Below, piece after piece: positions 3,306 through 58,393 of a stretch of DNA of 64,000 nt. Numbering within the stretch: the first letter of the stretch is position 1; each line of letters begins with the position of its first letter. Source of the DNA: Closterium sp. NIES-65 (lineage: Eukaryota > Streptophyta > Zygnematophyceae > Desmidiales > Closteriaceae); contig CANXME010002072.1 of assembly GCA_948144175.1 (NCBI GenBank), positions 62,001-126,000 on the forward strand. Reading direction: 5' to 3'. A program made the translations under genes and the position numbers. Under the pieces are notes generated by a model, which did no database searches, was not told where the DNA came from, and saw nothing but the letters and a program-made list of their open reading frames with translations.

Positions 3306-3509
3306 CACCCCCATAGCCTAAGTGAGGGGTGTCTAGCAAAAACAAAAAAGAGTACGGTCACAAGACCAGTCCAAAAGAAAACAAAGCTCAGGGTGGATCA
3401 CAACGTCACCACACACTCTGAGCACAAGCAACAGTGGCCACAAGGCCAGTCCAAGAGATCACAAGTATATATAGTAAGTGTACAGACGAAGCAGGCAATA
3501 AACTCAAGT

Positions 3510-6500: not shown

Positions 6501-9500
6501 GAGGGGGGGAGGAGGAACCGGGAGACCTCGACTGGGGTACCTGACGTAGTACGGAGTGGACTCCTCGAAACGGACGTCACGGGAGTCAAAGAACCGGTGA
6601 GAGGGAGGGTGGTAAAAGGTGAAGTCAGAGGAGTCCTCAGGGAAACCAAGGAAGACACAGGGGACGGCACGAGGCGAGAGCTTGTCCGCGGAGGTGTCGC
6701 GGACAAGAGCCAAGCACCCCCAGACACGAAACCGCGACGCAACACCAGGGGACCCTGTCCAAAGACTGGTCGGTGAAACCTCTGGTCGAGAGACACGTGG
6801 CCAGAGGTTCAGCTGGTGCGCGGCGTACCTGACCGCGTAGGGCCACAGAAAATGGGGGGCACAGGCGTGAGTCAGGGAGGTGCGGGCGATCTCCATGACC
6901 AGGCCTATGCGGCGCTCAGCAACCCCATTCTGCTGTGGGGACTCTGGAAGCGTCCAGGACTGACGAATGCCCTGCTCGCGACAGAATCCAGCGAGAATGC
7001 CGGAGCGAAACTCACCCCCACGGTCGGAGTGGAGACAGCTGACACGACGACCACGAGTGTCCTCAGTGGTGAGCTACCACCTGATCAGCGTAGAAGTCAC
7101 CTCAGACTTCTTCGCCAGAGGGAACACTGTGGTGTAGCGGGAGAAGTCGTCAACTACCACCAGAAAGTAACGCTCACGCTCAGGGCCTAGACGAGGGGCT
7201 GGGCCCCAGACGTCCAAGTGAAGCGTCTCAAAAGGCTCGGTGGCCGGACAAAGGGAGGAAGAGTGAGGGGTGGCGCGCAGCCTACCCTCGACGCAGGGAC
7301 GACACGGCGGCGCAGGCGAGGGCGGCAGCGACGGCAAGACACGTGGGAGGCCTAGGACAAGACGCTGACTAGACATAGCGCGCAGACGTGGAAGGGACGG
7401 GTGCCCCATCCGGTGGTGCCACAGAACGGTGGGGTGGGCAAGCGACCGGCAGGAGCACGACGCAGCGACTGGAACAGACGTAGGAACCTGACACGACACA
7501 GACACCTGGGGGGACGTAGCAACCTGGTGAGACGCGGGGACCCGAACGGGGGGGGGAACCGGGGGCAGTGGCAGTAGGGGGGGCTGCTGGTGCGGCCGCT
7601 GGTGCTGCTGCTGCTGCTGCTGCTGCTGCGGCTGCGGCTGCTGCTGCTGCTGCGGCTGCTGCTGCGGCGCACGCGGGCCAGTGTGAAGAGTGTAGAGACC
7701 CGAGCCCGGCTCAGCAGTAAAGGTAGCAAGAGGCTGGTAAGAGTCTCCGTCAACACACACCGCAGTCTCTCCAGAAGGCTCAAACCACACACCCACGTGC
7801 TGACTCACGAGGGGTCGCACGCCCACCAAGTTCCGGGAGAACGAGGGGACGTGAAACCCAGTGAGAGACCCGGAGGGAGCAGCAGGACACGGTAAAGTGG
7901 TAGTGTGACGGGTAGTGACTGGTCCCGTAGTGGGATCAGCCAACGCTACAGAAACAGGCGCAGGAAGTGGTGTAAGTGTCGTGCTGTCCCGGAAGAAGCA
8001 GTGGGAGGCTCCAGAGTCCAGTGTGAACGACAGCGAAGCGTCCCCTGAGGTAGTCGCTGGTCTAGAGTCTACACAAGTACCTACACTAGCAACAGGCAAC
8101 TGAGTAAGACTAGCACCTAAGCTAACAACACCAGAGTAAACAGAGTCAGAAACACTAGAGTCAACAACAGCATACATAGCATGAGGAGCACTAATCAGAT
8201 CAACTAACTGCTCAGCAGACATGCCCCACAGAGCGGAGCCGTAGCGCTGAACCAGAGGAAGCCAGTCAGGAGCAGGACCGCCAACCCCGTAGGTCAACCG
8301 GACCGTGTCAGTGAGCTGAGCAAAGCACTGACCAGGGGGGTGAAAGCGGCCACAAGGGTGGCCCCGACGAGGACCTGTCTGAACCTGGTAGGGGCAGGGA
8401 GGGTAAGCCGCACCGCGCTGGGGCTGACGCAGCCCCGACCCCGGAGCCAGCTGCTGACGCTGCTGCTGCTGAGGCTGCTGGGAGGAAAGGGGCTGCTGCT
8501 GCTGCTGAAGGTGCTGCTGACGCTGAGCCTGGTACCACGCCGCTGCTCCACCTAGCGGGGCCGGCAGTACAGGAGGCGACTGACGAGCTCGAGGGTCGCC
8601 GCCACCAGCAGGTGCAGTGGAGTCACCAGCCGCTGCACGAGGGGTCTCTCCAGACGCTGCACTCCCACCACCGCCAGTCGCAACAGCACCCCCACTACCT
8701 CCGCTACCTCCGCCTCCACCTCCACCGGAACCACCTTTCTTGCCCCCCCTGCCGCGGGACCGCGACGCAGTCGTAACAGCAGCCGCAGTCGCGTCAGTAG
8801 CGGCAGTGGCAAGAGAGGCAGTGAAGGTGGGTAACTGCGGGACTGTGCACCCGTGGAAGAGTGGGGGGGACACAGTACCAGAGGCGGCAGCTACCGAACG
8901 AAGGTTGCTCTCGACGTCCTTGAGTGCAGACTCAAGGACCTCGATAGTCAGCTCACTAGGGTGCTTCAGCAGAAGCGCGTCACGAACGGAGGCAAGGCGG
9001 TCAGGGAGGCTAGTGGCGATGAAATAGACAGTAATCGCCATGGGGGGAGGAAGCAGTGCAAGCTGTGCCTCAGTGCAAGCAGCGCGGTAACTAGCGTCGA
9101 GCGAGCGGAGGTGAGCGATCAAGTCAGCAGAGCGCTCAAACGAGGCAAGATCAGGAAACAGGAACGGGAGGAAAAGACGGCCGAGAGAGACAGTAGCGGG
9201 AGTAGAGTAGCGGGCCTTAATCGCAGTGAGGTACGCAGCAGCGGTGCGAACCTGAGTAAAGTGGACCTCCTCGAACTCAGGGAGGAGGCTGCCGAGTGCG
9301 ATGCAGGCCGCAGCGTCACGCGACGTCCAAGCCGTCCGGTCAGCGCGCTGACGGGCAAAGCGAGCCGTAGCAGCGTCGTCAGGAGCAGGGCCTAAAGCGG
9401 TAGGCTCGGGGGGCTCGGGGAGGTCACCAGTAGCGTGTGACCAGAGGGTCTCGCCCCCCTGGACCTGACTCTCTAACAGACGACGAGCGCGAAGAAGCCA

Positions 9501-9560
9501 GACGGAAAAGTCAAGGGGTCTACCGTCAGCGTCGAAACGAAGAACTCGCGGAGTCGCCAT
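3510..9560 (-). CDS. Copia A gag-pol coding region (fossil)
   Basis: The Gag-like start (MATPRVLRFDADG) lies at 9560. In order along the minus strand: UBN2/Gag-like domain to about 8400; a Cys/His cluster near 8400-8340 (C-x13-C-x3-H-x4-C); aspartic protease (FTLDSGASH) near 8020; integrase HHCC zinc region near 7430-7290; integrase core about 7215-6870; a long proline/glutamine-rich linker; reverse transcriptase about 5010-4400 with the YVDD box; RNase H about 3880-3540, ending with the copia EANTADIFTKAL motif. Polyglutamine and glycine tracts are abundant. About one break is present. Confidence 0.88.
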
Positions 9561-9639
9561 AGTGAGAACCAACGCGAACGAACAGGCGAGTAACAACCGG
9601 GGGGGAAGAGGACTCAGTCGCAGCGGAAGAGCGGGCTAG

Positions 9640-17515: not shown

Positions 17516-20500
17516 CTAAATAAAGGCGAGGGAGTTGCGGTCGTTGCCTGCTTGCGGTCGGCCCCTTGTTGGAGTGGGTGGCCGTTGTGAGTTGAGCTCC
17601 TGCAGGCATCACACACGGTAACAGGGCAGGGTGGGGTGGCGTGGGGAAGGGGGGGCGGGAGGGGGGAGAAGGGGGGAGAAGGGGAAGAAAAGAGGGGAGA
17701 AGCGGGGGAGGAAAGGGGAGAAGGGGGGGGAGAAGAGGGGAGGAAAAAGGGGGGAGAAGGGGGAGAAAAGGGAGGGAGAGGGGGGAGGAAGGTTACAGCC
17801 ATTGACGGAAAGCTCGTAGTGTAAACAGCATGAGCGGCACAATATGAGACATGCGATAAACGTAGCAGTCGAGCAGGGCGAAAGAAAAAATCGAGTTGGG
17901 CAGAGGTGATTCCTGAAAGAAAGGGCATGGGTTGGAGGGCATCCCAGGGGCGAGGGTGGGAACATGTCAGTGAAAACAAAAGGCAGGAAGATGTGAGAAG
18001 CACAAAAGCCACTCACTGCCATCCACATGTCATCCTGGTCATCAGACGAGTTGGCCGGGTTGGTGGGTGTTGTCATGACATGCATACTTGATGTGGAGGT
18101 AACAAACACGGGAGGTGTAGGGAGTCGGGTGTTAGAAGCACAAGCCACTCACCTGCATCCACGTGTCATCCTGGTCATCAGACGAGTTGGCGGGGTTGCC
18201 GGTGGGCGGTAGCGGGTGGATCATCTTGGGGAAGACGACGAGGTCCCTCCCCAGCACCAGGATGGCGCCAGCGTTGTTGGCCGTGCCTGCACAGTCCATG
18301 CCAGGTGATAGTGTGAGAGAAGGGAGGAGGGCCAGGTCCAGATATTAGTATATGTCATGCTATAGAATGAGAAAACCATGGGACTTGAAAGAGGGAAAAA
18401 AATATCACAGCAGCACTGACCGCAGTAGTTGGTGGCGGAGAAGAGTATGATGAGGTGGCCTCCTGTGAAACAGAGATGTGGCAGCACTCACCCCAACAGC
18501 ACTCATCGCCACACCACTCACTCCAGCACCAATCACAGCAGCACTGCTCCCACAAGCATCACCCAAAGAAGCGCCACTGACCGCAGTAGTTGGTGGCGGA
18601 GAAGAGCGTGATGAGGTGCCCCCCTGCAAAGCGCTCAAAGCCGTCCATGACACACTCGTGTGCGCGAATGATGAGCTGCAGGTCGTTGGTGTGACAGAAC
18701 TCCATCACTCGGTCAGGCTGGAGGGGAGGGGAGGGGAGAGGGGGGAGGGGAGAGGGGAGAGGGGAGAGGGGAGAGGGGAGAGGGGAGAGGGGAGAGGGGA
18801 GAGGGGAGAGGGGAGAGGGGAGAGGGGAGAGGGGAGAGGGGAGAGGGGAGAGGGGAGAGGGGAGAGGGGAGGGGAGTGGGAGGAGGGGAGAGGAGGGAGG
18901 TGTTGGATTGGTGAGATTTGAAAACCTTGTTGCATGTGGAATGATGAGCTCCAGGTCGTTGGTGTGACAGAACTCCATCACTCGATAAGCCCGGGGTGGA
19001 GGAGGGACGGAAGAGGTGAAGGTTCCAGGGAAGGGCGGGGAGAGCGGACGGGAGGGGAGTGGGGAGTGGAGGCGAGAAGAGGACCAGGTGTTGGGAGGAA
19101 GGAGGACCAAGCATAGGCGGCATGGGACAGGAAATCTGAGCACGAGGAGTGCAAGGAGAGGAGAGCGTTGGACTAGAGGAGCGGAGGGGAGGAGTAGAGG
19201 AGGAGAGTAGGAAAAAGAGAAAACGAGCAAGCAAGGAGAAGAGGACAAGACGAGCGGAGGAGGGGCAAAGAGGATGAGAGGAGAGGAGAAGAGGAGAGGG
19301 GACATGAGGAGAGAATGGAAGGAGTGATGAGACGGGGGGAGAGCAGGGGCAAGGCCGAGAGGCTCACCCCAAAGGTGACGAGGCCTGGTCCTCTGGCGTT
19401 GGGTTGCAGGCCCTCTATGCTGTCGTTCTCCGTGGGATCCGACCTGTGGGTCAGGAGGGGTGAGAGCATGTGTCCGAGTGAGAGAGGATCCGTCTGTGCG
19501 GGGCATGTGTGTGTGAGTATTCACGCCCTTTGGCGTTGGGTTGCAGACCCTCTATGCTGTCGTTCTCCGTGGGATCCGACCTGTGAGACGAGGGGTGAGA
19601 GCATATGTGTGAGAAAGCCAGTGGGTAGTAGTGTGTGTGTGGAAGTGAGTATGCGTGAGTGCGAGAGAGTGGGTATAAGTGTATGTAAGGCCTCGAGCAC
19701 ACACTGGAGCAAGTCCAGAACCATTGAGCCTGCTTCCATGGTGATGGGGCGCTTGAGCTCCTCGATCTGCGACACGTGCTGGATGGACCCAAGTGTAAGA
19801 GCTGACACATTGACTCGCCACACAAGGTCCCCCACAGAGCCCCACACAGCACATGGTCCCCCACAGAACCCCACAGAGCCCCACACAGCACATGGTCCCC
19901 CAACACACCACAGCAGGTCCATGAGCACCATGGATCCGGCCTCCATGGTGATGGGGCGTTTGAGCTCTATGACACACTGACTGACAGAGCAGGCAGACGA
20001 GGTATCACCCAGTGCCCCGACTCACCACAGCAGGTCCATGAGAACCATCGACCCAGCCTCCATGGTGATGGGGCGTTTGAGCTCCTCGATCTGCGACACG
20101 TGCTGAATGGAGCGCCCTATACCCCCGTGCATGCACAGGATCTTGTGCTCTATGAGTGCTGCTAGGGGCAGCCAGTTGAACAGCTGGTTGATGCGATGCC
20201 ACGCCCATATGCCCCCCTCCTCGCCCTGCAGGGGTTTTATGGTGGTAATGGGGGGAGTGTGGAACCCAATGAATGAGAAGGAAATGATTGGCTAGGTCAA
20301 TCCACACAGTATGTCTCACAAGCATAGTACACTGGCAATAGGATGGGTGCAGTCACATTGCGGTGCACAATCTTTGCACAGGTTACATCAGCCATGCATC
20401 AAACACGGTGACATGGACCGCACTGCACCACTCACCATGCGTTCGATGCACTCCATTCGGAAGCCAAAGAGAGCATTGATGTCTGCCGCCTCGTGATTGC

Positions 20501-23500
20501 CTCGAATCAGATGCACGTTGCGCGGGAACTCAATCTGGGTAGGGGGGAGGGAGGGGAGGGGAGGGGAAGAAAGGGAGGCATGAGAGAGGAGGAGAAAGTG
20601 CAGTACACGAGAATCAGATGCACATTGCACGAAAACTCAATCTGGAATGGAGGCGAGGAAGGGGAATAAAGGGAAGTGTGAGAGGATAGGAGTAGATGCA
20701 GTGTACAAGAATCAGATGTGCGTTGCTCGGGTACTCAATGTGGGGTAGGGGGGAGGGAATTCAGGGAGAATGGCAGTTCAAGAGGAAATGCGGTGTAAGA
20801 GATTCAGGATTTCGTACTAGCAAGCAGCGGATAAACGAGCGGTAGAAAGATTGAAACCCTGCGACCCACATCCATGCAGCCATCCCCCAACCATGCTATC
20901 CATCGATCCCCCATCCATACACGTTCCCCACATGGTGTGAGTTCCCTGCATCACCTTGAGTGCGAGCAGCAGGATAATTGTTTCGAGGCTGTGCTGGCCC
21001 CTGTCCACGTAATCTCCCAGGAATAGGTAGTCGATGTACCTGGTGGGAGGGGGGGGAGGGGAAGAGACAGTAGGGATAGTGAGGAGAGGAACGGAGACAA
21101 AGCCAGTGAGGGACTGAAGAGCGGAGAGCGGAGGCACTGCGCTGCCCCCTGTCCATATAGTCGCCAGGAAAAGGTATTCTATGTACCTGGTGGGGGTTGG
21201 GAGGAGAGCGGATGGAGGGGGATGGGGGAACGGGGGAAGATAAGGGTAGCGAGGGAGTGGAACGGGGATTCCGAGGCACGGTGCTGTGCTGGTCCCTGCC
21301 CATGCAGTCGCCCAGGAAAAGGTAGTCTATGTACCTGGTGAGGGGGGGGGAGGGAGGAGAGGGCAGGAGAGCACAGCACGGAACATATGTGCAGTGAGGA
21401 TGAGAGGGAGTGAGGTGTGGAGGGCAGAGGCGCGGTGCTGCGCTGGCCCCCCACATGGCCCGCCTGATGGTCGCATCCCTGCACCGCCACATCCCTGCAG
21501 CAGCACCAGCGGAGGGTGGCACTGTGTTGTGTTCAGGCACTCACGCGATGTCGCCGGCAGTGGAGGGCGAGCCGTACTCGTCAAAGAGGCGCATGAGGTC
21601 GCCAAACTGCCCGTGCAGGTCGCCAAAGATCTTCACTGGCGCCCGCACCTGCCACATGACACGATGGGGGGGGAGGTGGGGGGGAGGTTAAAGGGGGGAG
21701 AGACATGGGGGGAGATAGGGGAGGAGACACGAGGGATACACAGGATTTGTGGCAAGGAGAGCTCGCTGGGTGACAAGTCAAACCAAGGGGCTGATGGCCG
21801 CATTATTGGCAGAAGCACCCAGATACACGCCTAATGGGAAGGTACACTTTTTTCTCATAACCTTTGTTGCTCTTTCTCACCTGCAGCACGGAGGGTTCGT
21901 TCTTGAAGTGCGTCTCAGCGAGGTCACAGAGCTCCACCACGCCGTGCATGTCAAGCCCCACCCGTACCCTACCGGACCCACCCTCCCCCACATTACATTA
22001 CCAGCAGCACACATACGCCTGATACTCCCTCAGCCTGGACCTGGACCCACACTCCCAGTCGTACCTGCAGCACGGAGGGTTCATTCTTGAAGTGTGTCTC
22101 AGCGAGGTCACAGAGCTCCACGACGCCATGCACGTCCAGAAAGAACTGCCGACTCACCGGAGGCTTCCACCCCCTCGGCTTCAACAGCGTTTGCAATACC
22201 TGCAGCCAGCCAGGGGCAGACGGGGGGAGGGTGAAGTGGAGGATGTGGTGTGTGTGTCTGTGAGTGAACGATTTGATTGCGAGTGAACGTCATAATCTGC
22301 AAATACCCCAGTATACCTTTTTTTCCCTCCCCTCTCCTGCGCCCCTGTCCCACCACCCTTTTCTCCTGGCCTGCTTCTCACCTTCTTATGCACGCCCTGG
22401 ATGGACATCTGCCTGTCCAGCAGGCGTCTGTGAGCCTGCACGCCGTCAGGGCTGTAGCTGATGCAGCGGTGCACTTACTTGGAGCTGCACAAACTAGCAG
22501 CCTCCTGCCTACTCTACCCTCACCCAACCCCCGCTCTCCCCCCCACTCCCGCCCCTCTCACCCCACACACACCTTCTTATGCACGCCCTGGATGGACATC
22601 TGCCGGTCCAGCAGGCGTCGGTGCGCCTGCACGCCATCGGGGCTGTAGCTGATGCGGCGGCCCTCATTCTCAAAGTGCTCTATGGACAGCTGGCGCACCA
22701 AGCCCCCCAGGTTGTTGCCGCCTGGGTCTGCTGATACCACCACCTGAGGGGAGGAAGAGGGAGAGAGGGACAAGGGTAGATGTCAAATGGGGGGGGAAAG
22801 CAGGAGACGGGAGGGGGAAGGGTAGCGGGAATTGGAGAGAGAGACGTACGTTGACATACCAATGGAAATGAAAACTGCGAGGAAAAAGTAAAGCTGCACA
22901 GTCAAGCAGACAGCGGAAAAACGAGTGGGGCGGTGTGGGTGAAAGGGGGGAAGAGGGAAAGGGTGCATTGAAATGGGGGGGTTGGGAAGGGGTTAGGGTT
23001 GGGGAAGGAAAGGGAAGGAAAGTAGAGCAGAGGGCTAGCGGGGGCTGGCAGCACTTACAGCGCGGTGATGCAGGCGCACGCCGCCCTTGAAGTCGGGAGT
23101 GTCACTCCTGCCGTCGTCGCTGTGGCTGGTGAGGCTGGACGTGCTGGGGTGCAGCCCGTCGCTGCTGCTGTCGTCCGCATCCCCCTCCTCGTCTTCCTCC
23201 TCCTCCTCCTCGTTGCTACCCCCCGCCCCGCCCCTTCCTGGCACGCCCCCCCTGCCGTTGAAGGACACCCCATCCGCGCCCTCCTCACCACTGGGTGGAT
23301 CGGACGAAAAGAGGAGGGGGTGGGGGGTCGGGAGAAAAAAGAAGAGGCGGGGGAGGGGAGGGTTGGCGGGAAAATGCGGGGTAGAACATGGGGAAGACAT
23401 TTGAGTTGACTCAATAAGCGCCCCTCCCTGGCACGGCCCCCCTGCCGTTGAAGGACAGGCCATCCGCGCCCTCCTCGGCACTGGGGACGTCGTGGGGGGG

Positions 23501-26500
23501 GGGGGGATGGGGGGAACATGGAGGAGAACGTGGGGAAGCGGGGGAAGGGGAGGGTGGGGCGGGGGGAGGAAGAGGAGAGGAATAGGAAGCAGACGAGGGC
23601 ATGGAGCAAGGGCGTAGAGATGGAAGACAACAACAAATCCAGCGCGCCAAACCACGCACCTGGTGAGGTGGTCGCGAGCATGAGCTGCCCCGCCATCAGC
23701 CTCCCTGCCAGCGGCAGAGGCAGCAGCAGCCTCCCCACAAGTGATTCTATGGTGGACAAAAGAATCACCTCTGGTCCCAGCCAGCCCCGCCACGCACCTG
23801 GTCAGGTGGTCGCGAGCATGCGCCCCGCCGTCAGCCTCCCTGCCAGCGGCGGAGGCAGCGGCAGCGTCCCCGCGCGCCCCCTTGCGGGGGGCCACGGGCG
23901 GCCTGCGGTTGCCCACGCCCTCCGCCTTGGCGGACGGGGCAGGCAGAGGAGGCGGCTCCGGTGGTGAGTCATCGGCAATCAGCAGATCGTCCAGAAGAAT
24001 GCCTGGTGTGCGCGCGGAGGGGGGAAGAGTGGGGGAGATGAAGGGGAGGGGAGGCGAGAATCGGTCCGTTGGAGGGTTGACAATGAGAGAGTGGAAATGG
24101 CAGAGGAGGTGGCTCCAGTGGCGAGTCGTTTGGCAATCAACAGATCGTCCAGGAGGATGGGTATATGGTCAACAGCGTGGGGGAGGGGCGGGTGGTGTGC
24201 GTGGGGGGCAGAGAGTGAACAGTGTGAGCATATGGTCCTCCAGTATTATTCTCTTCCACTCACTCCAGCCCTTCTACACTCCCCCCCTCACTCCATCCCT
24301 CCACCATTCCTCTCGGCCCCATGATTCCCCCCATCCCCTCGCTCACCCCCTCGGAGACCCCCATAGATAAAGATTGAGTTGGCAACGGCAGCAGCGGCGT
24401 GGCGGCAGCGGCGGGTGAGCTCGGTGCTGGCGTCGCCCCCAGGCGCGTCCGCACTGAATCGCCCCGTCCTTGCCACCGCCACCGTGCCCTTGCGGTCACA
24501 CCACACCCCCGCTGCCGTGTCCAACACTGCCGTGCATGGGAGAGGGAGGGCGGAGGGAAGGAGGAGGTGGGAGGTTGCGAAAGTGGTAATTAGCCCCTCC
24601 TTGCCACGGCCACCGTGCCCTTGCAGTCACACCACACTCCCGCTGCCGTGTCCAACACTGCAATGGGGGAGGGGGACACGGCGGGACGAGGACAGAAGAA
24701 AGGAAGGCGTACGCGGCAACAATTAACAGCCATCGAAGCTCTTGGTTTGTTGATGCCACCGCATGGTCACCGGGCACACACCACCCCTGTCGGGTGGGTG
24801 CAAACATTCCATGGTTGCAAAAAGTGACGGCAGGTACGGTCACTGGACGCATCCTCCCCCACTCACCCGCCACACCAGATGCATCCTCCCCCACTCACCA
24901 ACCACCACACAGAATGTTTGTTTGCAGACAATAGGGGGAGGTGGGTTGTGCACGCAGTTAAGTTGAGTTGCACTACATTCGGGTACATTCTGGCACATTC
25001 TGTGCGTCAGTTTAGTTGAACTACAGGAGGCTGCATTGCACTCACCCGCCACACTGGACGCATCCTCCACCATGCGGCCGCCCCCCAGGGCTCCACCTGA
25101 CACATGCAGGCGCAGGTTCACAAACACCTGCGCACACACGGTGGAGGGGTTAGGGAGAAGGGGGAGGGGGGCGGGGGGTGTTGGAGAGAGGGGGGGGGGG
25201 GGAGGTGGGGACGGGGGAAAAGAGAGGGAGAGTAAGGCGCATGAGTGGCTAACTTGTGCAAGCTGGTTATCTAGACAGAACCACGACAACCAACCCACTG
25301 GTGGTACTACTCGACCAACAAGTGAAATATGGACGGACAGGCGCATGTGTGATGGGAGGGGCTTACAGCAGCGTGCTGGTAGCGCGCCGAGGGGGACACG
25401 CCAGGCGCGATGGCCCACTCCCACCGCCCGTCTCGGTGCCGCGCCAAACCATACGCGCCTGGCAGGGGCTGTGGGGGGACAGGGGGGGGGGGGGGGGGGG
25501 GGGTAACGAGGGAAGAGGAAAAACGGGAATTTATGGACAAGGTCAGTACTTACTGGAAGAATCAAAACAAGCACCTGCACAAGGGACTTGGACCATAAGG
25601 GAAGAGCGCAGGTTGCATCACAGTGCAGGGCATGGCATGGCACGGCATGACATGAGACAACAGTGCAGCTGGTGCAGCACGAGCAGAGGCTCACCACGCT
25701 GCTCCCGTCGCGCCCGCCACAGAGCAGCAGCAGCCCGTCATGGCGCGAGCTGGCGGTGGCGTACATGCAGGGCGGCGGCCCCTCGCCATCGGGCTCCAGC
25801 TTCTTCCACTCGTACGGCTTCGCCGCCGTGTCCAGCGTCCACACGTCCGCCAACGGCCGCTTGCCTGGAGGACGGGCGGGAGGGGGAGTAGTACATAAGG
25901 TAAGACGAATGAGATAGATGGTGTTTCTTAACATTCTCAAACGCATGTGGCTGTGTCCAGCGTCCACGCGTCCGCCAACGGCCGCTTGCCTGAAGGCGGG
26001 AGGAAGGGGGAAAGGGGGAGGAAGGCGGGGGAGGGAGAGGGAGAGGGAGTGGTGCGGAAAGGGAGGAGGAGGGGAGAATCACATGCACTGGGCTTGAATG
26101 AATGAGGTGAGCGTGGTGTAGCTGGACTGAGAATGTATCCCGAAAGGTGGAAAAGGACAGGGTTCTGGGTAGTCGAACGCGTGGAGTTGAATATAGATCT
26201 CTCGCTCGCTAGCTCGCCATGTCGCTCGTTCGCTGGCCCGGTGGCGTGGCGCTCACCGTCGTTGCCGCTGATGGAGAGCAGGAAGCGCTGCCCCACCAGC
26301 GCCATCACGTGGCCGTAGCGCGGCCCTGGTCCCGCGCCCTGCACCACCACTCTGATCGCGGAGGGCCGGGGGGAAGGGAAGGGAAGGGAGGAAATAGCAG
26401 GGGAGGGGGATGCGGGCGGTGAGAGTCAGGGGCGGTTAATGAAGAAAGAGGTCGAGGCTGTTAATTCACAATGCGCGGGAGACGGAAAAGGTCGTAGCGA

Positions 26501-27721
26501 GATAGGGAAGGCACCGTTTCCCCGTTACCTGTGCCATTTGGGGCGCGCTTGTGTGAGGTCGAGGACGTGCAGGTCGTCCGTTGCCAGGCCCGCGGGCCCA
26601 ATGCCACCCTGCCAACACGCGTTCAGCGAAATTTAGAGAAACGGACTGGCGAAGAAGTCGAACGATGATAAAGAAAAGCCTCCACTCCTGAACACAATTC
26701 AATAGCCTTTCGCGCAAAAACCCGCGCTAGAAATGAGGGTAAAAGGACGCAAGATTAAGAGCGACCGAGGGTTCGCGCGGTAATGTCGAGCACTGATGAG
26801 AAGGCACCTGAATGACGATCATGGTCCCCACTGCCGTCGCCGCGTGAGCTGCTCGAGGCGACGGAGGCTCGCCGACTGGCGACATTCTGAAAGCGAGACG
26901 ACACGGGAATGCTTCTGCATGAGGCGCGTAACGTAATGCACGTACTACACATAGTAACGGCGACGATGGAAACTCCGCCATGGGAACTCAAATCATTACA
27001 CCACTACCGATTGGCCTTACGACAACGCCTGCTTTCCAGTAGAAGAGGAGACCTCCAGAGTGGTGATAAGCCCTTTGTAAGCGATACTGAAATCTTGACA
27101 TTTGTATATGATTCTTTTCTCGCATTGTGAGAAACCAGACATTCACGTACTTGCTCCATGTTCTGGATTTCACGTCGAAGCAGTGAACGTCCGCAGTTGC
27201 CCCCGCCAGACCTGCGCGCGATGACAATGCGAGCTTAAAAAGATGAGCTTGGAGAGTGGGGGTTAAAAATATGTGACCTTCAAACAACCTGAGAGGCGTA
27301 CCAAATTAAGAGTTTTAAATGCATAAGAGAAAAATGATAGGTGCCCGACAACGATAGCGGGAGAACGGAATGGCGTAACGGCAATGCCAGGTACGACGAA
27401 ATGATACGACATGACATGACATGACATGACATCAGATGACCTGACATGGTTAAGAAAGCGATGCACCAAGGTTGGTAGGTGCCGAGCCTTACGAATGCCT
27501 GCAGCGCCGCCTGCAGTGGCGCCAGCTCCGCCTTCCAGAGCCGTGGCTCCACCGAAGAGAATCAGTCTCGGACCCACGTAGTTGGCGCTTCCTGGCTCTC
27601 CCACCGCAGCAACGGCTGTAAGCGTATGACCGCACCTAGGGCCCGGCGACTCGCCATTGAACGGACAGGGAGTATACGTGGGAGCTATTCTTGGCTGCTC
27701 GCCATCGGCGTCGACGTCCAT
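17516..27721 (-). CDS. BSL: BSL: Kelch-repeat PP1-type Ser/Thr phosphatase
   Basis: Plant BSU1/BSL phosphatase: an N-terminal Kelch beta-propeller fused to a PP1-like metallophosphatase; in flowering plants it acts in brassinosteroid and cell-division signalling. I read 21 exons: 27493-27721, 27151-27211, 26808-26886, 26529-26608, 26257-26351, 25695-25864, 25367-25468, 25046-25127, 24347-24526, 23798-24002, 23059-23290, 22573-22743, 22065-22199, 21545-21648, 20955-21039, 20436-20534, 20026-20225, 19368-19443, 18582-18717, 18153-18286, 17516-17599. They sum to 2739 nt (912 aa), with every phase matching. The ATG at 27721 has an in-frame TAA 15 nt upstream. Kelch repeats occupy exons 1-9 (GPRCGHTLTAV, LILFGGATALEGG, LHVSGGALGGG). 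Catalytic motifs GDLHGQ, GDYVDRG, RGNHEA, HGGIG, RAHE and SATNYCG lie in exons 14-19. The C-terminus (ELNSQRPPTPTRGRPQ) is the family tail. All metal ligands appear present. Introns carry many partial exon copies. Confidence 0.93.
17635..17800. repeat. Polypurine (plus) / polypyrimidine (gene strand) tract, last BSL intron
   Basis: About 165 bp of almost only G and A on plus (GGGGGAGAAGGGG-type). In the BSL transcript it is a long C/U tract in the last intron, just upstream of the terminal exon acceptor. Confidence 0.7.
18017..18065 (-). repeat. Partial copy of BSL exon 20 (exon end + donor)
   Basis: Repeats the NPANSSDDQDD-W-M coding end of exon 20 with several substitutions, followed by a GTGAGT donor. 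It lies downstream of the real exon in the transcript. Confidence 0.75.
18415..18464 (-). repeat. Partial copy of BSL exon 19 (exon end + donor)
   Basis: Copies the GGHLI-x-LFSATNYCG end of exon 19 and its GTCAGT donor, with a few changes. It lies in the intron after the real exon. Confidence 0.75.
18718..18895. repeat. (GGGAGA)n-like satellite in BSL intron 18
   Basis: A near-perfect run of GGGGAGA units, purine-only on plus, directly upstream of the exon 19 acceptor in transcript sense, so it serves as an extreme polypyrimidine tract there. Expandable; it may form unusual DNA structure. Confidence 0.85.
18940..18988 (-). repeat. Partial copy of BSL exon 19 (exon start)
   Basis: Copies RVMEFCHTNDLEL-II from the start of exon 19. 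It lies upstream of the real exon, across the satellite tract. Confidence 0.7.
19528..19580 (-). repeat. Partial copy of BSL exon 18 (acceptor + exon start)
   Basis: Copies SDPTENDSIEGLQPNA and the CACAG|GTCGG acceptor junction of exon 18. Upstream of the real exon. Confidence 0.8.
19704..19790 (-). repeat. Partial copy of BSL exon 17 (exon end), distal
   Basis: Copies HVSQIEELKRPITMEAGSMVL from the end of exon 17 with substitutions near the donor side. Second of two copies downstream of the real exon. Confidence 0.8.
19826..19902. repeat. Short tandem repeat, ~35-bp unit
   Basis: The phrase ACACAGCACATGGTCCCCCA with an adjoining CAGAGCCCC stretch occurs twice in tandem plus a partial third, within BSL intron 17 between two exon copies. 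Confidence 0.55.
19909..19967 (-). repeat. Partial copy of BSL exon 17 (exon end + donor), proximal
   Basis: Copies ELKRPITMEAGSMVLMDLLW with few changes. It lies directly after the real exon, so three versions of this segment stand in a row. Confidence 0.8.
20607..20645 (-). repeat. Partial copy of BSL exon 16 (exon start), proximal
   Basis: Copies the IEFPRNVHLI-R coding start of exon 16 with substitutions. Upstream of the real exon. Confidence 0.7.
20706..20745 (-). repeat. Partial copy of BSL exon 16 (acceptor + exon start), distal
   Basis: A second, differently diverged copy of the exon 16 start, including the C-rich acceptor sequence. Confidence 0.7.
21140..21188 (-). repeat. Partial copy of BSL exon 15 (acceptor + exon start), proximal
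   Basis: Copies the YIDYLFLGDYVDRG segment, which holds a catalytic motif, with changes, and keeps the CCACCAG|GTAC acceptor. Confidence 0.78.
21281..21339 (-). repeat. Partial copy of BSL exon 15 (acceptor + exon start), distal
   Basis: Reads YIDYLFLGDCMGRDQHS, so the DYVDRG motif is degraded: it could not code for active enzyme. Acceptor sequence retained. Confidence 0.78.
21881..21953 (-). repeat. Partial copy of BSL exon 13 (exon end + donor)
   Basis: Copies HGVVELCDLAETHFKNEPS-VLQ almost unchanged and ends with a good GTGAGA donor. It keeps the reading frame, so of all copies this is among the likeliest to be spliced. Confidence 0.8.
22382..22468 (-). repeat. Partial copy of BSL exon 12 (exon end + donor)
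   Basis: Copies ISYSPDGVQAHRRLLDRQM and SIQGVHKK with about 5 changes, followed by a GTGAGA donor. Downstream of the real exon. Confidence 0.8.
23421..23480 (-). repeat. Partial copy of BSL exon 11 (acceptor + exon start)
   Basis: Copies EEGADGLSFNGRGAVPGRG and the CCCAG|TG junction. Upstream of the real exon. Confidence 0.78.
23652..23738 (-). repeat. Partial copy of BSL exon 10 (exon end + donor)
   Basis: Copies the ASAAGREADGG-x-HARDHLT end of exon 10, with a GTGCGT donor. Downstream of the real exon. Confidence 0.8.
24099..24159 (-). repeat. Partial copy of BSL exon 10 (exon start)
   Basis: Copies the ILLDDLLIA-type start of exon 10; the AG acceptor is no longer evident. Upstream of the real exon. 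Confidence 0.7.
24592..24657 (-). repeat. Partial copy of BSL exon 9 (acceptor + exon start)
   Basis: Copies VLDTAAGVWCDCKGTVAVAR with the TTGCAG acceptor. Upstream of the real exon. Confidence 0.8.
24838..24893 (-). repeat. Two short copies of BSL exon 8 end + donor
   Basis: The exon 8 end (VEDASSVAG-like) and its GTGAGT donor occur twice within 56 bp, each followed by GGGGGAG-type sequence. Downstream of the real exon. Confidence 0.7.
25950..25989 (-). repeat. Partial copy of BSL exon 6 (acceptor + exon start)
   Basis: Copies GKRPLADAWTLDTA with only a few changes from exon 6 and keeps the CAG|GCAAGC junction. It is a plausible competing acceptor. Confidence 0.78.
27404..27436. repeat. 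(ACATG)n microsatellite in BSL intron 1
   Basis: About six ACATG units in tandem, then degraded units. Confidence 0.75.
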
Positions 27722-28761: not shown

Positions 28762-28962
28762 CCTGGTATCAGAGCTACTTTCCTAGTTCACCCCGCTTTT
28801 CCGAGGGTAGTTTGGTGGCATAGGGTGTGGCTGGTTTAGTGAATACACGACGGTTGGCTGCAGGGATTGTTAATTCAATCTTGCCCGACTCCGATAGTTC
28901 GTGTTTTCATTTGCCTGAAGGCCACGGAGACCCGATTGCCCACCAGACGTAGCGTTAGGCAT

Positions 28963-30006
28963 ATGGATCAGGAAGCGGTCAACAGGATGATGGCGCAAGT
29001 GGCAGATATGCAGGAAAGCATGAAGACGTTAATGGCGGAAGTGACGACACTGCGAGAGGAAAACGCCGAACTACGCCAGACGCGAGGTGAAGCGCGTCAG
29101 GAGTCGCCTGTGGACGAAGGCGAGGGCAACAGTCAGGCGATGAGCAATCCATTGGATGCGCTCACACGTGACTTCGAAGAGGAGGATAGGCAGCGAGCGG
29201 CAGCAGCTCCAGTTGCAGTGACAACGATCAAGATCAAGCCCGTCAATCCACCCCCGTTTAATCCTACGGACAAGACGATTACGGTAAAAGGGTGGTTGTT
29301 CGGGGTCGAAGTCTTTTTTACTGCAGGCGGAGTTAATGACGATGCCACGCGTATTAATTACGCAGTTTCGCTTCTTCGAGGTGCAGCGCTTGAGTGGTGG
29401 CGCCGAACCTTGGAAACAGGGACGCCGACAGGTGTGACACATGCGGCAGACGGGACCTCTACAGTGACTAATCAAGTGGCAACGTCGATCTTCGGAGTGA
29501 CCACGATACGCACATGGAAGGAGTGGGGCGCAGCCTTACGAGGTCGCTTCGAGCACGTATCCGCCTCGGAGCAAGCTCGCATGAAGCTGCGTGCATGGTC
29601 GCAGATGGCTTCTGTCCAAGACTACACGGCGTCATTTATGAGCCTCGCCGACCAAGTCGATGACATGTCGGAAGCTGAACGGCTGGATAAATACATCAGC
29701 GGCCTCAAATACGAGATACAGTACGAGGTTCGCAGGGGCCGTCCGACGTCATTTCTTGCAGCAGTACAGTTGGCGGAGTCCACAGATGCGCTGATGCAGT
29801 ACGCGAGAGCAGCTTCCCGGGAGGGAAACCGTTTTCGTGGCCAGACCCATCGGACCACGATCAACGCCGTGCATAAACCCGACCGCCCTCCTAAGGGACC
29901 GTGTTTCCGGTGTGGGAAGACGGGTCACTACATGAAAGATTGCCACGAGAAAACGCCACTGATGGGGAACGACAGGAAGGAGCAGGGAAATGGGAAGAGT
30001 CAGTAA
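28963..30006 (+). CDS. Gypsy C Gag (fossil)
   Basis: Starts MDQEAVNRMMAQVADMQE with a predicted coiled coil (about residues 1-50), then a retrotransposon Gag core with the W-x-L-F and A-x-x-WWRR-type motifs (about residues 100-290), and a canonical CCHC knuckle CFRCGKTGHYMKDC near the C-terminus. It would bind element RNA and form the particle core. Confidence 0.9.
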   Translation: MDQEAVNRMMAQVADMQESMKTLMAEVTTLREENAELRQTRGEARQESPVDEGEGNSQAMSNPLDALTRDFEEEDRQRAAAAPVAVTTIKIKPVNPPPFNPTDKTITVKGWLFGVEVFFTAGGVNDDATRINYAVSLLRGAALEWWRRTLETGTPTGVTHAADGTSTVTNQVATSIFGVTTIRTWKEWGAALRGRFEHVSASEQARMKLRAWSQMASVQDYTASFMSLADQVDDMSEAERLDKYISGLKYEIQYEVRRGRPTSFLAAVQLAESTDALMQYARAASREGNRFRGQTHRTTINAVHKPDRPPKGPCFRCGKTGHYMKDCHEKTPLMGNDRKEQGNGKSQ

Positions 30007-30039
30007 TTAGCGGGCCCTTTACTGACTGTGCTCCGTCGC

Positions 30040-33000
30040 CCGAACCCCGCCATCCCCACCGAGTCGTGGTTCCGATTCATGCAATCGATCGCACTCGGCC
30101 GAATAACGGGGATAATCACGTGGATCACCCTGTGTTGGTCGCTGGTAAGGTGTTAAAAAATAACCCGAAAATGTTCGTCGATGGAGGGGCCAGTCATAGC
30201 CTCTTCAATTTGGCGAGCGCAAAAAAATGCAAGCTGCAACTTGACAGGTGTCTGCCCAAAGTCGACGCTCGCCTCGTGGACGGGACGCCTCTGGCGATAA
30301 CGGAAGAAACGCGGACGGTCAGGATCGAATGTGGCGACGATTTCGGCTTCAGCATGAAGTTCCTCGCGACAACATTGGACGGCTGCGACGTACTGCTGGG
30401 ACGCGATTGGCTGCGACGGCACAACCCCGTCATCGACTGGACAACGGGGACGTGCAGCATCAACAAGCACGAGGGGCTAATTAAGCTCCCTGCATGGACC
30501 CCTGACTACATCCAAGCCTCGTGCGTCAAAGCCATCACTATAGCTCGCCACTTCAACAGGGCGCGCAGCTGTTCGCCGTTTGTTTACGCGAGTTGGCAGT
30601 CGACACCGAAGGAAAAGACATCGAGAAGCTGTGTGCAGCTGTACCACCGGATTTAGCGGAGCTGATTCGGAGGTACCCGGAAATCTTCCCCGACGATCTG
30701 CCACCTGGACTGCCACCGGAGAGACCTGAGGACCACAAAATCCAGCTAGAACCTGGAGCGCAACCAACCGCTTGGACACAGTGGCGGTTGACCCAGCCGG
30801 AACTCGAGGAGCTGCGACGACAAATCGACGCACAGTTGGAAAAAGGGTTCATTCGGGCCAGCACATCTCCCTTCGCAGCACCGATTCTGTTCACTCCGAA
30901 GAAAGACGGCGGGCTTCGCATGTGTATCGACTATCGCGCGCTGAACAGGGTCACCATCAAGTCTCGCTACCCAATCCCACGCACCGACGACCTCCTCGAC
31001 CAACTTCGTGGCGCTCGCTATTTCTCGAAAATTGACTTACGTGGCGGTTACCATCAAATTCGAGTCTTCGCCGACGATTGTCACAAGACTGCGTTTCGTA
31101 CACGCTACGGGAGTTACGAATTCACAGTGATGCCTTTCGGCCTCACGAACGCGCCCTCAACTTTTCAGCTGACCATGAACAGGGTTTTTCGGGATCTTCT
31201 AGACCGGTGCGTTATCGTCTACTTAGACGATATCCTCATTTTTAGCAAGACAAAAGAGCAGCACCTCCGTGACCTGGACGCAGTGTTTAAGCGGCTGCAG
31301 GAGAACCGACTCATCACCAAGGGCTCTAAGTGCGAGTTTTTTAAGCAGGGTTGGAGTTTTTGGGGCACATCATCTCGCGCGACGGCATTAAAATCGACCC
31401 GGCGAAAATCAATACCATACAGGAGTGGAAGTCCCCGACGAACGTCACGGAGCTCCAGAGTTTCCTCGGATTCGTAAATTACGTCCGGAGGTTTATCCCG
31501 AATATGGCGGGGATAACCGGCCCGCTGACCGACCTGCTGCACAAGAACAAGAATTTTGTGTGGGGGGAGGAGGCAGAAGCGGCGTTCCAGGAACTCAAGA
31601 ATTTTCTCGTTTCCCCTCCTGTGCTGCGCATCGCCGATCCATCGAAGCCGTTCGAAGTTGTAACCGACGCCTCAGATTTCGCCATCGGAGCTGTGCTCCT
31701 CCAAGATTTCGGGAACGGGTTGCAGCCGATAGCCTACGAATCACGCAAGCTGCAGGCAGCCAAACGCAACTACCCGATCCACGACAAGGAGATGCTCGCC
31801 ATCATACACGCATTTAAACTATGGCGATGCTACCTGGTGGGCGCCGACGTCACTTTTCGCACGGACCACAAATCCCTACAGTACCTGCGAGCCCAACCCA
31901 ACCTCAACCCACGACAGATTCGATGGCTCGACTACATGGAGAGCCATTTCACCTACCGCATCACGTACAAAAAAGGGGCTAATAACATCGCCGACGCCCT
32001 GACCCGACCGACAGTACAATCCGCTGCAGTACTCATCACCCACTCGAACCCGCTACTTACCGGACTATTCACCCACGGCTACACGACAGACCCCTTCTTC
32101 ACAACGGGAAACCATCAGCAGGCTACGACGCAGAAAGGGGACTATTACCTAAAAGCCGGAACCGAACGGATTTGGGTTCCCGCTTACCGTCTGCTGCGTG
32201 AGCTCCTCATCCAGGAGATACACGATTCAAACCTCTCCGGACATTTCGGGGTCGATAAGACACACAAACTACTGCACCGTCACTATTACTGGCCGGATTC
32301 CTCTAACGACGTGCAGCGCTATGTGTCAGCATGCAGGGTGTGCCAAGCAATGAAGTCGACACGTCAGCGACCAGCTGGATTGCTGCAACCCCTCGAGCCA
32401 CCCGAACGACCGTGGCAACAAGTGACGATGGATTTTGTCACGGGGATGCCAACTGGGCCGACAGGCAACGACGCTGTTCTCGTCGTCGTCGACCGCTTCA
32501 CGAAAATGGCGCACTTTGCACCATGCCGAACGACAATCACAGCCGAAGAAACTGCGCGACTTTTCATATCGACGGTCGTGCGACTGCACGGCATCCCTTC
32601 AGCGATCATCAGCGACCGCGACCCAAAATTCACATCCAAATTCTGGAAGGAGACATGGGCGCAATACGGCACGAAGCTACAGTTCTCATCGGCTTACCAC
32701 CCGCAGACCGACGGTCAAACAGAGCGGACCAACCAGACCATGGAGCAGTTAATCAGGACCAACTGCCCCGATCCTGCCCGTTGGGAAGACTCGCTCGCAA
32801 TGCTGGAATTCGCTTTCAACAACGCACCATCCAGCACGACTAATCACTCCCCATTTTTCCTGAATTATGGGATGGACCCGGCGGTTCCGACGACAACTAC
32901 ACTCGCCAATCCGGTCCCGCGTTCCCAGACTTTCGTGACAGAACTCCAGGAAGTCCGCAAAAAAGCCGCCGACGCAATTCGCAAAGCGAATATTACTTCC

Positions 33001-33150
33001 CGCAAATACACCAACTTTCTTCGCCGGGAACTCGTCTTGACTACTGGGCAACTAGTCCTCCTCGACACGAAAAACCTGAACCTGCCCGGCCCTGCGAAAC
33101 TTCGGCCACGATTTTGCGGACCGTTCAAAATTCTCAAGATGGTGACACCT
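30040..33150 (+). CDS. Gypsy C Pol: protease, RT, RNase H, integrase (fossil)
   Basis: Protease motif FVDGGASHS near 30175; reverse transcriptase about 30790-31330, with the FTPKKDGGLRMCIDYRALN block, LPFGLTNAP-type region and YLDDILIFS; RNase H about 31640-32000; integrase HHCC region about 32220-32370; integrase core about 32400-32850 (MDFVTG, DRDPKF, YHPQTDGQTER); then the GPY/F region up to the copia D insertion. The frame has about one or two breaks. Confidence 0.92.
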
Positions 33151-33283
33151 TGTCAGAACATATAGCTTACTTGTTTCTGTAGGCTATAGTGGGGTATCCC
33201 ATAGGGGGTACAACCCAATTAGGGTTTCCTATTTGTACCCACTTCATTTCATAGTCATTCACTCTCGTTCATTCAGTTTCACA
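33151..33283 (+). repeat. 5' LTR of copia D
   Basis: 133 bp, reads identical to 40640-40772. Confidence 0.95.
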
Positions 33284-54873: not shown

Positions 54874-57800
54874 TTACCAGTCAGTCACTCCTACACATGA
54901 AGTTACCTGGCGCTGTATTCTTGCTATCTCAGTTATCCCGGGCAGAGACCCCATTACCATGGGAGGCATTGACTGGTGGAGACCGCCAGTCCCATAGACA
55001 TTGAGGGAGGTCGGGAACAAGGCACCAGGGTTAGGGGAAGTTATGTTAACGCTGTCCATAAATATGTCGGTGCAGGGAACGGTTCTGCTGCACCTGAAGA
55101 TGATCCCTTCAGGTCCAAGCGTTGTGCCTTGGATGTTAGAGTATGTTACATTAACTATGGCGACATTGCTAGTCTTGATGTCGCTGTAACAGTAAAGGCT
55201 GCCTCCGCAGTAAAACTTCTTGGGGGCAAGTGGGTGAACACAGAGGGGGGGCAGGACAGACGACATCGGCACAGAGTAAGGCAAGAAGTGCGGGGGAATA
55301 GAGGAATGGCATGGCAGGGTAGTTGTGATGGGAGGGGAAAAAGTGCCGCTCCATGGACTACACAACCCACCTGATCGAGGACGATTGGATACCGCACGTT
55401 CTCCATGGAGATGCCGTCATACATGATGTTGGTGGCCTTCCCTGCACCACCCTGGAACGTCTTGATGCGCAGGCCTATCTTGGTGTTGACGAACCGCACG
55501 TCCCTCACTGATATGTCCGACACGCAAGAGACAGGATACACCGTGCCGCTTCCTAGTGCTCCGATGCTGGCAAGAGTAACAAAAGGGGAGAGGGAAGAGG
55601 GAAGAGGGAAGGGGGAAAGGGGACGAAGGAAGGTGAAGCAATAGAAGGTGACATGAATCGGGGCATGACCAGGAGGAGAGATGAGAGTGAAGCTCAAGTC
55701 TCAACAAACCTCAACAACACAGGTAACCACAGGTAACCAGGCTTTTACTGTTGTGTTGTGAGTGCCACAGTTTGTGTTACGTGTCTGACGTTCCATAGGA
55801 TCACCCCACTTACGAGATGCCATGGCCTGTGAGGCACGTGACATTCGATATAGTCACGCCGACAGCGCCGTCCCACATGGACACGTTGTCATCACCCCCC
55901 CCGAGCGTGCACCGTCGGATGTCGATGTTGAAGGAGGAGGAGATGTGGATGCCGTCCGTGTTGATGCTCTCTGCCGGCGAGTCTGTGCGGAAATCAAAGA
56001 TGCGCATGTTGGCACACCGAAACACCTGCACGTGGAAAAAGGCCGCGTTCCTGAAGCGAGGGGGAGAAGGAAAGGAAAGAGTTGGTGAGTCCACGCGGAA
56101 ATCAAAGATGCGCATGTTGGTGCACCGGAAGATCTGCACATGGAAGAACGCCGCATTCCTGGAGCGAGGGAGAGAGGCAAAGAGGATTGAGTGGGTAGAG
56201 TCTTGAGGTGTTAATAAGGAGCAGGGGATCAGGCATTCACAACCAAACAAGGCAAGCCGTGGAACACAGAATGATGGAGAGAACAAGACCAACGGAGAGC
56301 ATGAAGCAACAAAACAGGGTAAATTGAAGGATGACCTTAATGAACAAGATGAACTTGATGCCACTAGCACGTTCTGGAGAAGAAGTAGACCTGCTCTGGT
56401 GTTCATAAATTGGCTCAACAGTCACGCGTGCTGACCTGACAGTGATGCCACTGAGCACGGTCTGGTTGCATCGGAAAAAGTACAGCAGCATGGGCCGATC
56501 GCCCTTCCCCTTCTGCTCCCAAAACAGCTGCCCTCGCCCGTCCACCACGCCGCTCCCATACACCTTCAGCCCTGTGATCCCCTTAAAGTAGAGAATCGTG
56601 AAGGGGCCAGTCTTGGGAACGGTGTAGATCTTTGGGTTCTGAGGCACGGTGATGTTTCCATCCAGCTGCACGTTCACGCCTGAAGGCCCGCACGGGCCAA
56701 GGAAGGAAACACCCATGATGTGGAAGGTGTATTTACCCGGAATCAGCACCGTTGGGGCAACCTGGTCTTTACCCCCATCTGCTGCTCCTCCTACTCCGGT
56801 TGCTGTGCTGCTGTTGAGGGACGCAGCACATGCGGCGGCAAAAGCTGCTTCGATTGCCTTCCCATCGTTGCTCTTCCCGTCCCCCTTCGCCCCAAAGCTC
56901 CTCACGTCATACACGCCACCCGTGCCAGGTGGCACCGGCTTACTGGCCGACGGCACGCTGGGAGGTAGATCGTACCATTCCCCTTCCCCTTCCCCTTCCG
57001 CCTCTTCCTCCCCATCCCCCCCTGGCGCAACCCCTCCTCCCCCCTTAGGCGGGGATTTGGAAGGGGGCGGCGATTTAGGAGGGGGCGGCGATTTGGGAGG
57101 GGGCGGCGATTTGGGAGGGGGTTGGGATTTGGGAGGCGGTGAGGATTTGGGAGGGGACGGGGATTTGAGAGGGGGAGGGGATTTAGGAGGGGGTGAAGAT
57201 TTGGGAGGGGGTTGGGTCTTATTTAAGGGTGGAGATGGCGAGAGGGTGGGGGGAGGAGGAGATTTTTGGGGCTTAGGTGGGGGTAGAGATGGTGGAGCAA
57301 TAGGGGGAGGAGGGCTCTTAGGCGGTTTGATGACCGGAGGAGGGCTCTTAGGCGGTTTGATGACCGGAGGAGGGCTCTTGATTGGGTTGGGAGGAGGTGG
57401 GCTGGAGGGTGTGGGTGATTTGGGGGCCTTGGTCGAGGGTGACGGGGAGGGCGGGGAGGGAGGGTCAGGCGGAGCAGCAGCGACAACAGCAGGCGGGGAT
57501 GGCGTACTGGCGGAAGGCTTGGGGGGAGACTTGGGGGACTTGAAAGTCGGGGGAGGCTTGGGGGATTTCCGCGGCTTGGGCGACTTGGCCGGCTTATGCG
57601 GACTCTTGGACGGCTTAGTCGGAGACTTGAGCGGTTTCGGCGGGCTGCTGGTCACGTTGGACACGCTGGTGTCATTCCCCCCCCCGCTGACCCCTGCAGC
57701 ACTGCCAGCATCCCCATCGCCCCCATCCTTTGATCCTGCTCCGCCTGCATCTGTGTCGTTGGTTCCTTGCTTCACAGGGGAGGCAGGAGCAGGAGGAAGA

Positions 57801-58393
57801 GGAGGAGGAAGAGGGGCGGTAGGTTTGAGAGCGGCAGGCCGTGGAGGCTGCTTCGCGGGGGACTTGGTCGTTTTGAACGCGTTCGCGGAGGTGGTGAGGA
57901 GAGGAAAAGACGACGAGGCGGAGGCGGGGGCCTCAGTTGCAGCAGAGGTAGGGATGGAATGACTTAACGTCTGAACCATGCGGCTGGCTTGAATCAGTTG
58001 CAATCGGCGACGGACGAAGGCGAACGAGGCACGAGCTAGCTGAGTCAGTGTGCGGGCGAGGCGTTCCGACCCATTCCCAGTTGGCTGTTTTACCGTCTGC
58101 CGCTGCTTGCCTGCTTCGTTCGCTTCCTCCGCTCTTCTTGTCACAGCGGCGAAAGAAAGTAGTAGAGATTCCGGTCTGAAGGGAGTAGCTCCATTCTGCT
58201 GCTCCACATCCTGAACGTCCTTCAGAAACAAGACTTCGTCGCATGAGAGTTTGTCTGATCTGATTCCGTCGGTAGATGCAGGTGACGAGGCATTCGCCGA
58301 CGACGCATGTATGATGGTGGAGGCCGAGAGGAGGACGAGCACGGCGAGAGCGGTGACTACTATGTTGGAAAGACGAAACCCTCGACGTGCCAT
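54874..58393 (-). CDS. Extensin-like/GH28 polygalacturonase fusion
   Basis: Exons 56436-58393, 55814-56050, 55371-55566 and 54874-55215 give 2733 nt, 910 aa, phases matching. Start chosen at MARRGFRLSN because a hydrophobic signal segment follows (VVTALAVLVLLSAS); an in-frame ATG lies 18 nt upstream. Residues about 190-450 are a hydroxyproline-type wall domain (KSPKPPP, SPPPKS, PPPPKSPPPPKS repeats). The rest is a GH28 right-handed beta-helix starting YDVRSFGAKGDGKSNDG. Catalytic motifs are visible: NTDGIH, GGGDDNVS, GHGIS and RIKTF. GH28 enzymes hydrolyse homogalacturonan pectin; the repeats would anchor the enzyme in the wall. The usual GDDC cysteine is N here. A partial exon 2 copy lies in intron 1. 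Confidence 0.88.
56085..56158 (-). repeat. Partial copy of polygalacturonase exon 2 (acceptor + exon start)
   Basis: Copies RNAAFFHVQIFRCTNMRIFDF and a little more, with substitutions, and keeps the CAG|GAA acceptor. It lies upstream of the real exon 2, as in the BSL gene. Confidence 0.85.

Follow-up and report, generated by a model that had tools for sequence, protein, structure and literature searches.

Tandem duplication over an exon edge has been described before, and the nearest precedent found for the case reported here is a single potato gene. In the RdRp gene PGSC0003DMG402000361 of potato, a tandem duplication over an intron-exon boundary duplicated the acceptor signals, and an 83-bp tandem duplication within the first intron is also mentioned (Ma et al. 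2016, PMC4974935). There a single gene underwent a single event, from which a new intron and an inserted exon with RNA-seq reads resulted. The present analysis concerns a 64-kb stretch of Closterium sp. NIES-65 DNA (contig CANXME010002072.1, positions 62,001 to 126,000; referred to as the window), in which the introns of a BSL/PPKL phosphatase gene contain partial copies of the exons next to them. The best-supported mechanism, and very probably the correct one, is local tandem duplication in cis of units spanning splice junctions, by which introns would grow in Closterium. Known here from DNA alone, the Closterium case differs from the potato gene in having 18 copies in one gene, in recurring elsewhere and in lengthening existing introns. 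Common to both is a duplicated unit that includes exon and adjoining intron sequence (in Closterium at exons 15 and 16 and in the 122-bp and 36-bp units described below), and the algal case may be filed as a variant of a known mutational process.

Other described systems are further removed. In intron gain by AGGT duplication (Hellsten et al. 2011, as cited in the parts of PMC4974935 covered) what is duplicated is exon sequence, and the intron that results stands at a position that had none before. The likeness is that tandem duplication of a gene segment alters intron structure; the Closterium copies, however, sit within introns of the existing gene model. Similarly, in the portions covered of the report on Drosophila tandem-duplication introns (Lehmann et al. 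2010, PMC2891723), exonic sequence was duplicated and one copy turned into intron, as here, but the intron positions are novel, whereas in Closterium existing introns grow. Copy number variation of the Closterium psl complex (Kawaguchi et al. 2023, PMC10407611) concerns the same algae, and probably the same assembly, but whole-gene copies. The main text of that paper uses the word intron five times, and the passages covered give length and number statistics. Among the titles and abstract openings listed by searches of an open-access library, none describes a gene or genome whose introns grow by repeated duplication across splice junctions.

The gene occupies 17516..27721 on the minus strand. 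Rebuilt exon by exon, it has 21 exons coding for 912 aa, with the ATG at 27721 and the stop codon, the only one, at its end at 17516; every intron is GT-AG. Pfam places kelch models from residue 28 onward and Metallophos at 611-818, and of 1639 protein search matches the best 120 include many plant BSLs among the relatives that carry names. It is a complete BSL/PPKL phosphatase with N-terminal kelch repeats and a C-terminal PPP domain in one protein. Intron 18 also holds a long GAGGGG purine array immediately upstream of exon 19 (18720-18870).

At a Smith-Waterman score of at least 28, the introns contain 18 partial copies from 13 exons (6, 8-13 and 15-20), close to the 19 or so from 13 of the exons 6-20 that an earlier note on this DNA had described; the introns hold no copy of exons 1-5, 7, 14 and 21 at this score. 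Ten are exon starts, all lying upstream of the exon, and eight are exon ends, all lying downstream, without exception, where the earlier note had counted about ten and about nine. All are on the minus strand. The upstream copies are those of exon 6 (25695-25864) at 25950..25989 (38/40 identical), exon 9 (24347-24526) at 24593..24657 (62/66), exon 11 (23059-23290) at 23419..23476 (54/58) and exon 18 (19368-19443) at 19527..19580 (52/54), each with its AG kept, and those of exon 10 (23798-24002) at 24099..24159 (52/61) and exon 19 (18582-18717) at 18939..18984 (45/46), both with the AG lost. Exons 15, 16 and 17 have two copies apiece, as the earlier note had it. For exon 15 (20955-21039) the first start copy is at 21137..21186 (41/51) and the second, part of a tandem triplet with a spacing of about 147 bp, at 21283..21334 (44/52), the AG being kept in both. 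For exon 16 (20436-20534) the first is at 20611..20641 (27/31; AG kept) and the second at 20709..20739 (27/31; AG lost), with a spacing of 98-107 bp. Downstream copies with the GT kept come from exon 10 at 23660..23736 (69/77), exon 12 (22573-22743) at 22382..22469 (82/88), exon 13 (22065-22199) at 21881..21955 (69/75), exon 19 at 18421..18465 (41/45) and exon 20 (18153-18286) at 18020..18062 (41/43); the positions given by the earlier note (18017..25989) are right, with 18020 as the start of this last copy. The first end copy of exon 17 (20026-20225), at 19909..19967, matches at 55/59 positions, keeps the GT and shows four synonymous and no amino-acid changes; the second, at 19708..19787 (73/83), shows seven synonymous and no amino-acid changes and one in-frame gap. 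The exon 8 (25046-25127) end copy, at 24841..24878 (31/38), is complex and has a frameshift gap.

The introns are purine-rich and repetitive, which could favour chance or low-complexity similarity. When each BSL exon was aligned with each BSL intron by Smith-Waterman, 15 of the 40 adjacent pairs scored 38-146, above all 380 non-adjacent pairs (maximum 30). The earlier note had proposed comparison with shuffled exon sequence, and 1000 dinucleotide shuffles gave a top score of 28. With adjacent scores of up to 146 against these two maxima, a chance origin has virtually no weight.

An assembly artefact, in which unmerged overlaps or gap filling had placed homologous contig ends into introns, would have the same geometry as tandem duplication. 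The window, however, is without any N, and a second locus, on contig C1772, is 99.2% identical to it over 12 kb and carries all 18 copies, that of exon 8 being shorter. The published NIES-64 and NIES-65 assemblies were made from PacBio reads with an N50 of 30 kb, according to the passages covered of PMC10407611; this read N50 exceeds the length of the gene and thus weighs against an artefact. Annotated proteins, among them those of other strains, point the same way. One protein of NIES-64 and two of NIES-65 match the gene model, take in pieces of its introns and resume at the junction of the exon-11 copy, which they read outside its coding frame. A Naga37s-1 protein has two pieces resembling the start of exon 11 ahead of the real exon-11 start; one of them ends in GALFESTQ, and the window copy, in the frame of the NIES proteins, reads GALIESTQ. 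At least one copy therefore appears to be shared between strains, and Naga37s-1 seems to have one more; in the open-access library searched, no paper mentions both Naga37s-1 and Closterium. That the copies are no artefact, as had been maintained from the divergence of copies, agrees with the second locus and with the exon-11-copy sequence in NIES-64 and Naga37s-1; an artefact is extremely unlikely.

Many of the copy alignments continue past the splice junction, with just a few intron bases recognisable beyond it at the copies of exons 12 and 13. At exons 15 and 16 the alignments form overlapping tandems, with offsets of 148 and 107. The lengths of the introns are in keeping with this. The eight copy-free introns average 239 nt and the 12 copy-bearing ones 463 nt; when the longest duplication distance per exon side is removed from each intron, the latter shrink to a mean of 225 nt. 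In total the duplication units account for 2856 of 7467 intron nt.

The mechanism proposed would run as follows. Short tandem duplications, of units from tens to about 300 bp, would be frequent in Closterium. Where the unit lies over a splice junction, the exon would stay contiguous with one copy and the other would turn into intron: a unit over the acceptor would leave an exon-start copy upstream, and a unit over the donor an exon-end copy downstream. The redundant copy would then mutate, later rounds would add further copies and the intron would lengthen. The molecular step may be slippage, template switching or unequal exchange. The proposal of the earlier note that repeated short tandem duplication across exon-intron borders makes introns grow is thus supported by geometry, tandem alignments and intron lengths, and also by the paralogue.

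A genome search for BSL found a pair of near-identical loci and a further two that are more diverged. The BSL loci on contigs C1657 and C1133 are 77-92% identical to the matched window exons, both have exon-edge copies, and they are at least 99% alike across most of the gene. They differ in a 122-bp unit that spans the exon-13 acceptor: there are two exon-13-start copies, 122 bp apart, in C1657 and one in C1133. Moreover, a 36-bp array follows immediately after exon 13, each unit made of the last 13 exon bases and the 5' splice site (donor); it numbers 30 units in C1657 (L008, G000:C1657:411001-421000, about 3438-4517) and 33 in C1133. A scan of C1657 with eight exons, those already seen with copies (exon 11 is unmatched there and exons 1, 9 and 10 partly matched), gave 19 copies, with starts upstream and ends downstream apart from two exceptions, an exon-17 piece that ends 19 nt before the exon end and an exon-13 piece that is about the whole exon. 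Seven of the nine copy-bearing junctions of the paralogue also bear copies in the window gene, where 15 of 40 do (hypergeometric P 0.008), and this sharing suggests either hot spots or homogenisation. The paralogue (G000:C1657 near 409525 and 417620) lacks two introns that the window gene has, 3 and 16.

For seven exons with copies in both paralogues, the copies group exactly with their own locus at 18 of 35 informative sites, and at one site the copies of both loci stand against both exons. Exons 6 and 12 are clean in this grouping, and exon 13 is mixed on the paralogue side. From this grouping, at least some of the copies would either be younger than the split of the paralogues or have undergone homogenisation inside each locus. 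Origin of all copies as fragments of a homologue had been considered, and is weakened by the grouping of window copies with their own exon and by a paralogue near the decay of dead copies. The data go part of the way to showing that the copies originated within their own locus and that they decay at the amino-acid level.

The window gene is not alone in this respect. The earlier note knew of no gene with so many copies, but among 13 gene loci looked at, a non-random set (contigs picked for BSL, segments by codon score), eight have exon-edge copies: two BSL loci, TCP-1-eta, uridine kinase, TPR, SNF2-like, WD40-like and GH28. The names SNF2-like, WD40-like and DUR3-like come from reading the peptides; Pfam backs TCP-1, PRK/uridine kinase, TPR, BET, GH28 and Ras, and in the WD40-like gene it matches a beta-propeller below threshold. 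In TCP-1-eta there are 17 matches around 11 exons, where 90 non-adjacent pairs reached scores of at most 24 and 400 shuffles at most 29; 12 reach the exon edge and five fall short of it. Of these five, one is weak, with a score of 39, and another is an internal stretch of exon 6 (nt 30-82 of 120) that lies downstream. In the uridine kinase gene, where as in the survey segments the stretches compared were cut by peptide or codon score and are not full exons, all 14 copies are in the expected place. The exon-start copy of the GH28-type gene (54877-58411 of the window) is at 56084..56202 on the minus strand, 108 bp upstream of exon 55811-56051, with 63/76 identical over the exon part and the AG intact. 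This copy reads through in frame and could add a 36-residue repeat to the protein. Local short direct repeats are common: 280 kb from two contigs hold 68 clusters, and by their coordinates 14 fall within the two BSL genes.

Several results weigh against junction-spanning duplication followed by simple decay. The survey gave no copy in five of its 13 loci (DUR3-like, an unnamed membrane protein, two BET and a Rab-type gene), and one borderline match, with the threshold score of 36, lies upstream although it comes from a 3' part. In the paralogue comparison 16 of the 35 informative sites are mixed or confined to one locus, so that homogenisation or an older origin is possible for some copies, and the exon-13-end copies of the paralogue are not clearly closer to their own exon. 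Intron sequence flanking the copies often scarcely exceeds background, full tandem units being visible for some only: flank identity is 0.65 for upstream copies (control mean 0.56, exon-part mean 0.90) and 0.54 for downstream ones (control mean 0.47, exon-part mean 0.91). The substitutions are a further difficulty. Simple decay would predict that the copy changes freely and the exon only synonymously, but of 85 differences between exon and copy 28 change an amino acid, where 47.1 (s.d. 4.5) are expected of dead copies and none of 4000 simulations was as low. The exon-end copies drive this deficit (8 of 40, expected 22.7, again none in 4000 runs); exon-start copies alone have 20 of 45, with 24.5 expected (P 0.11). 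A synonymous excess is also found in TCP-1-eta (105 synonymous to 59 amino-acid changes) and uridine kinase (69:34). Compared with one another, the copies show 170 synonymous to 151 amino-acid differences (all pairs, six sets), a count that, like the polarised ones, recounts changes common to several copies and is not made of independent events. Once polarised, the window gene has synonymous to amino-acid ratios of 16:1 on the exon branch and 26:22 on the copy branch, with 15:5 falling to neither; its copy branch is 11:17 for exon-start copies, which fit decay, and 15:5 for exon-end copies, which do not. In the paralogue the ratios are 35:1 for the exon branch, 26:48 for the copy branch and 21:4 for neither, and dead-copy decay nearly holds.

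These patterns could be accounted for if the copies were born diverged, through unequal exchange between diverged homologues or alleles, with the synonymous differences present from the start. The excess in the window gene, TCP-1-eta and uridine kinase would fit such an origin, as would intron flanks far more diverged than the exon parts, and exon 17 and its two copies show three distinct synonymous states at three codons with no amino-acid change. Closterium genomes are multi-copy, and the covered part of PMC10407611 reports that NIES-4550 is of hybrid origin and that sequences of different origin have recombined. However, among the BSL loci recovered by the genome search there is no homologue at the distance needed, grouping does not place the copies of the window gene with the diverged paralogue, the 122-bp unit that distinguishes C1657 from C1133 was clearly duplicated in cis, and the copy branch of the paralogue is near neutral. 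Birth in a diverged state is judged unlikely. Nevertheless, cis duplication does not fully explain the synonymous excess and the diverged flanks, for which the foremost candidate is exchange between gene copies that have diverged.

Alternatively, the copies might be used, now or earlier, as alternative splice sites or mini-exons under coding constraint, as in potato RdRp. The splice dinucleotide is intact in 14 of the 18 copies (AG in seven of ten upstream, GT in seven of eight downstream), so that the earlier note's view of inner splice sites as dying is borne out only in part. The synonymous excess, the in-frame GH28 copy with its acceptor and the annotated proteins that resume at the exon-11 copy as if its acceptor were used would also suit such a role. 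Against it, only five of the 18 duplication distances are divisible by three, read-through at exon 17 runs straight into a stop, the annotated proteins take the exon-11 copy out of frame, and the synonymous excess did not seem, judged by eye, to track intact splice sites. Use of the copies is thus very unlikely, and under local duplication in cis splicing would ignore most of them.

Intron growth other than by transposons rarely leaves a readable trace, since the sequence that was copied decays. In this alga, from a lineage near the land plants, a conserved exon is the source, and individual events can therefore be counted, dated and followed from fresh copies to decayed ones. The copies also offer a natural set of near-identical splice sites in competition, among them 30 or 33 consecutive donors, on which splice-site choice could be tested, and they explain odd gene models, one annotated NIES-65 protein taking in exon copies. 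Junction-spanning duplication may be a main route of intron growth genome-wide. A broader scheme, in which such duplication is a main and still active route of intron lengthening throughout the genome and the copies, not simply dead, stay under partial coding constraint through continued exchange with the functional exon edge or recruitment as such, is tentative and rather doubtful.

Some minor observations concern the surroundings of these genes. Conserved synteny between C1774, the contig of the window, and C1657 was tried as an exon finder and abandoned, the matches outside BSL being just scattered and repeat-like. One TCP-1-eta intron is filled by roughly 100 units of a 31-bp array (L028, G000:C1657:357001-367000, about 5950-9150), as estimated from reading frames. 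On either side of the window gene, at 28843-33162 and 3513-9635, lie open frames that are retrotransposon-like, as named from reading the frames.

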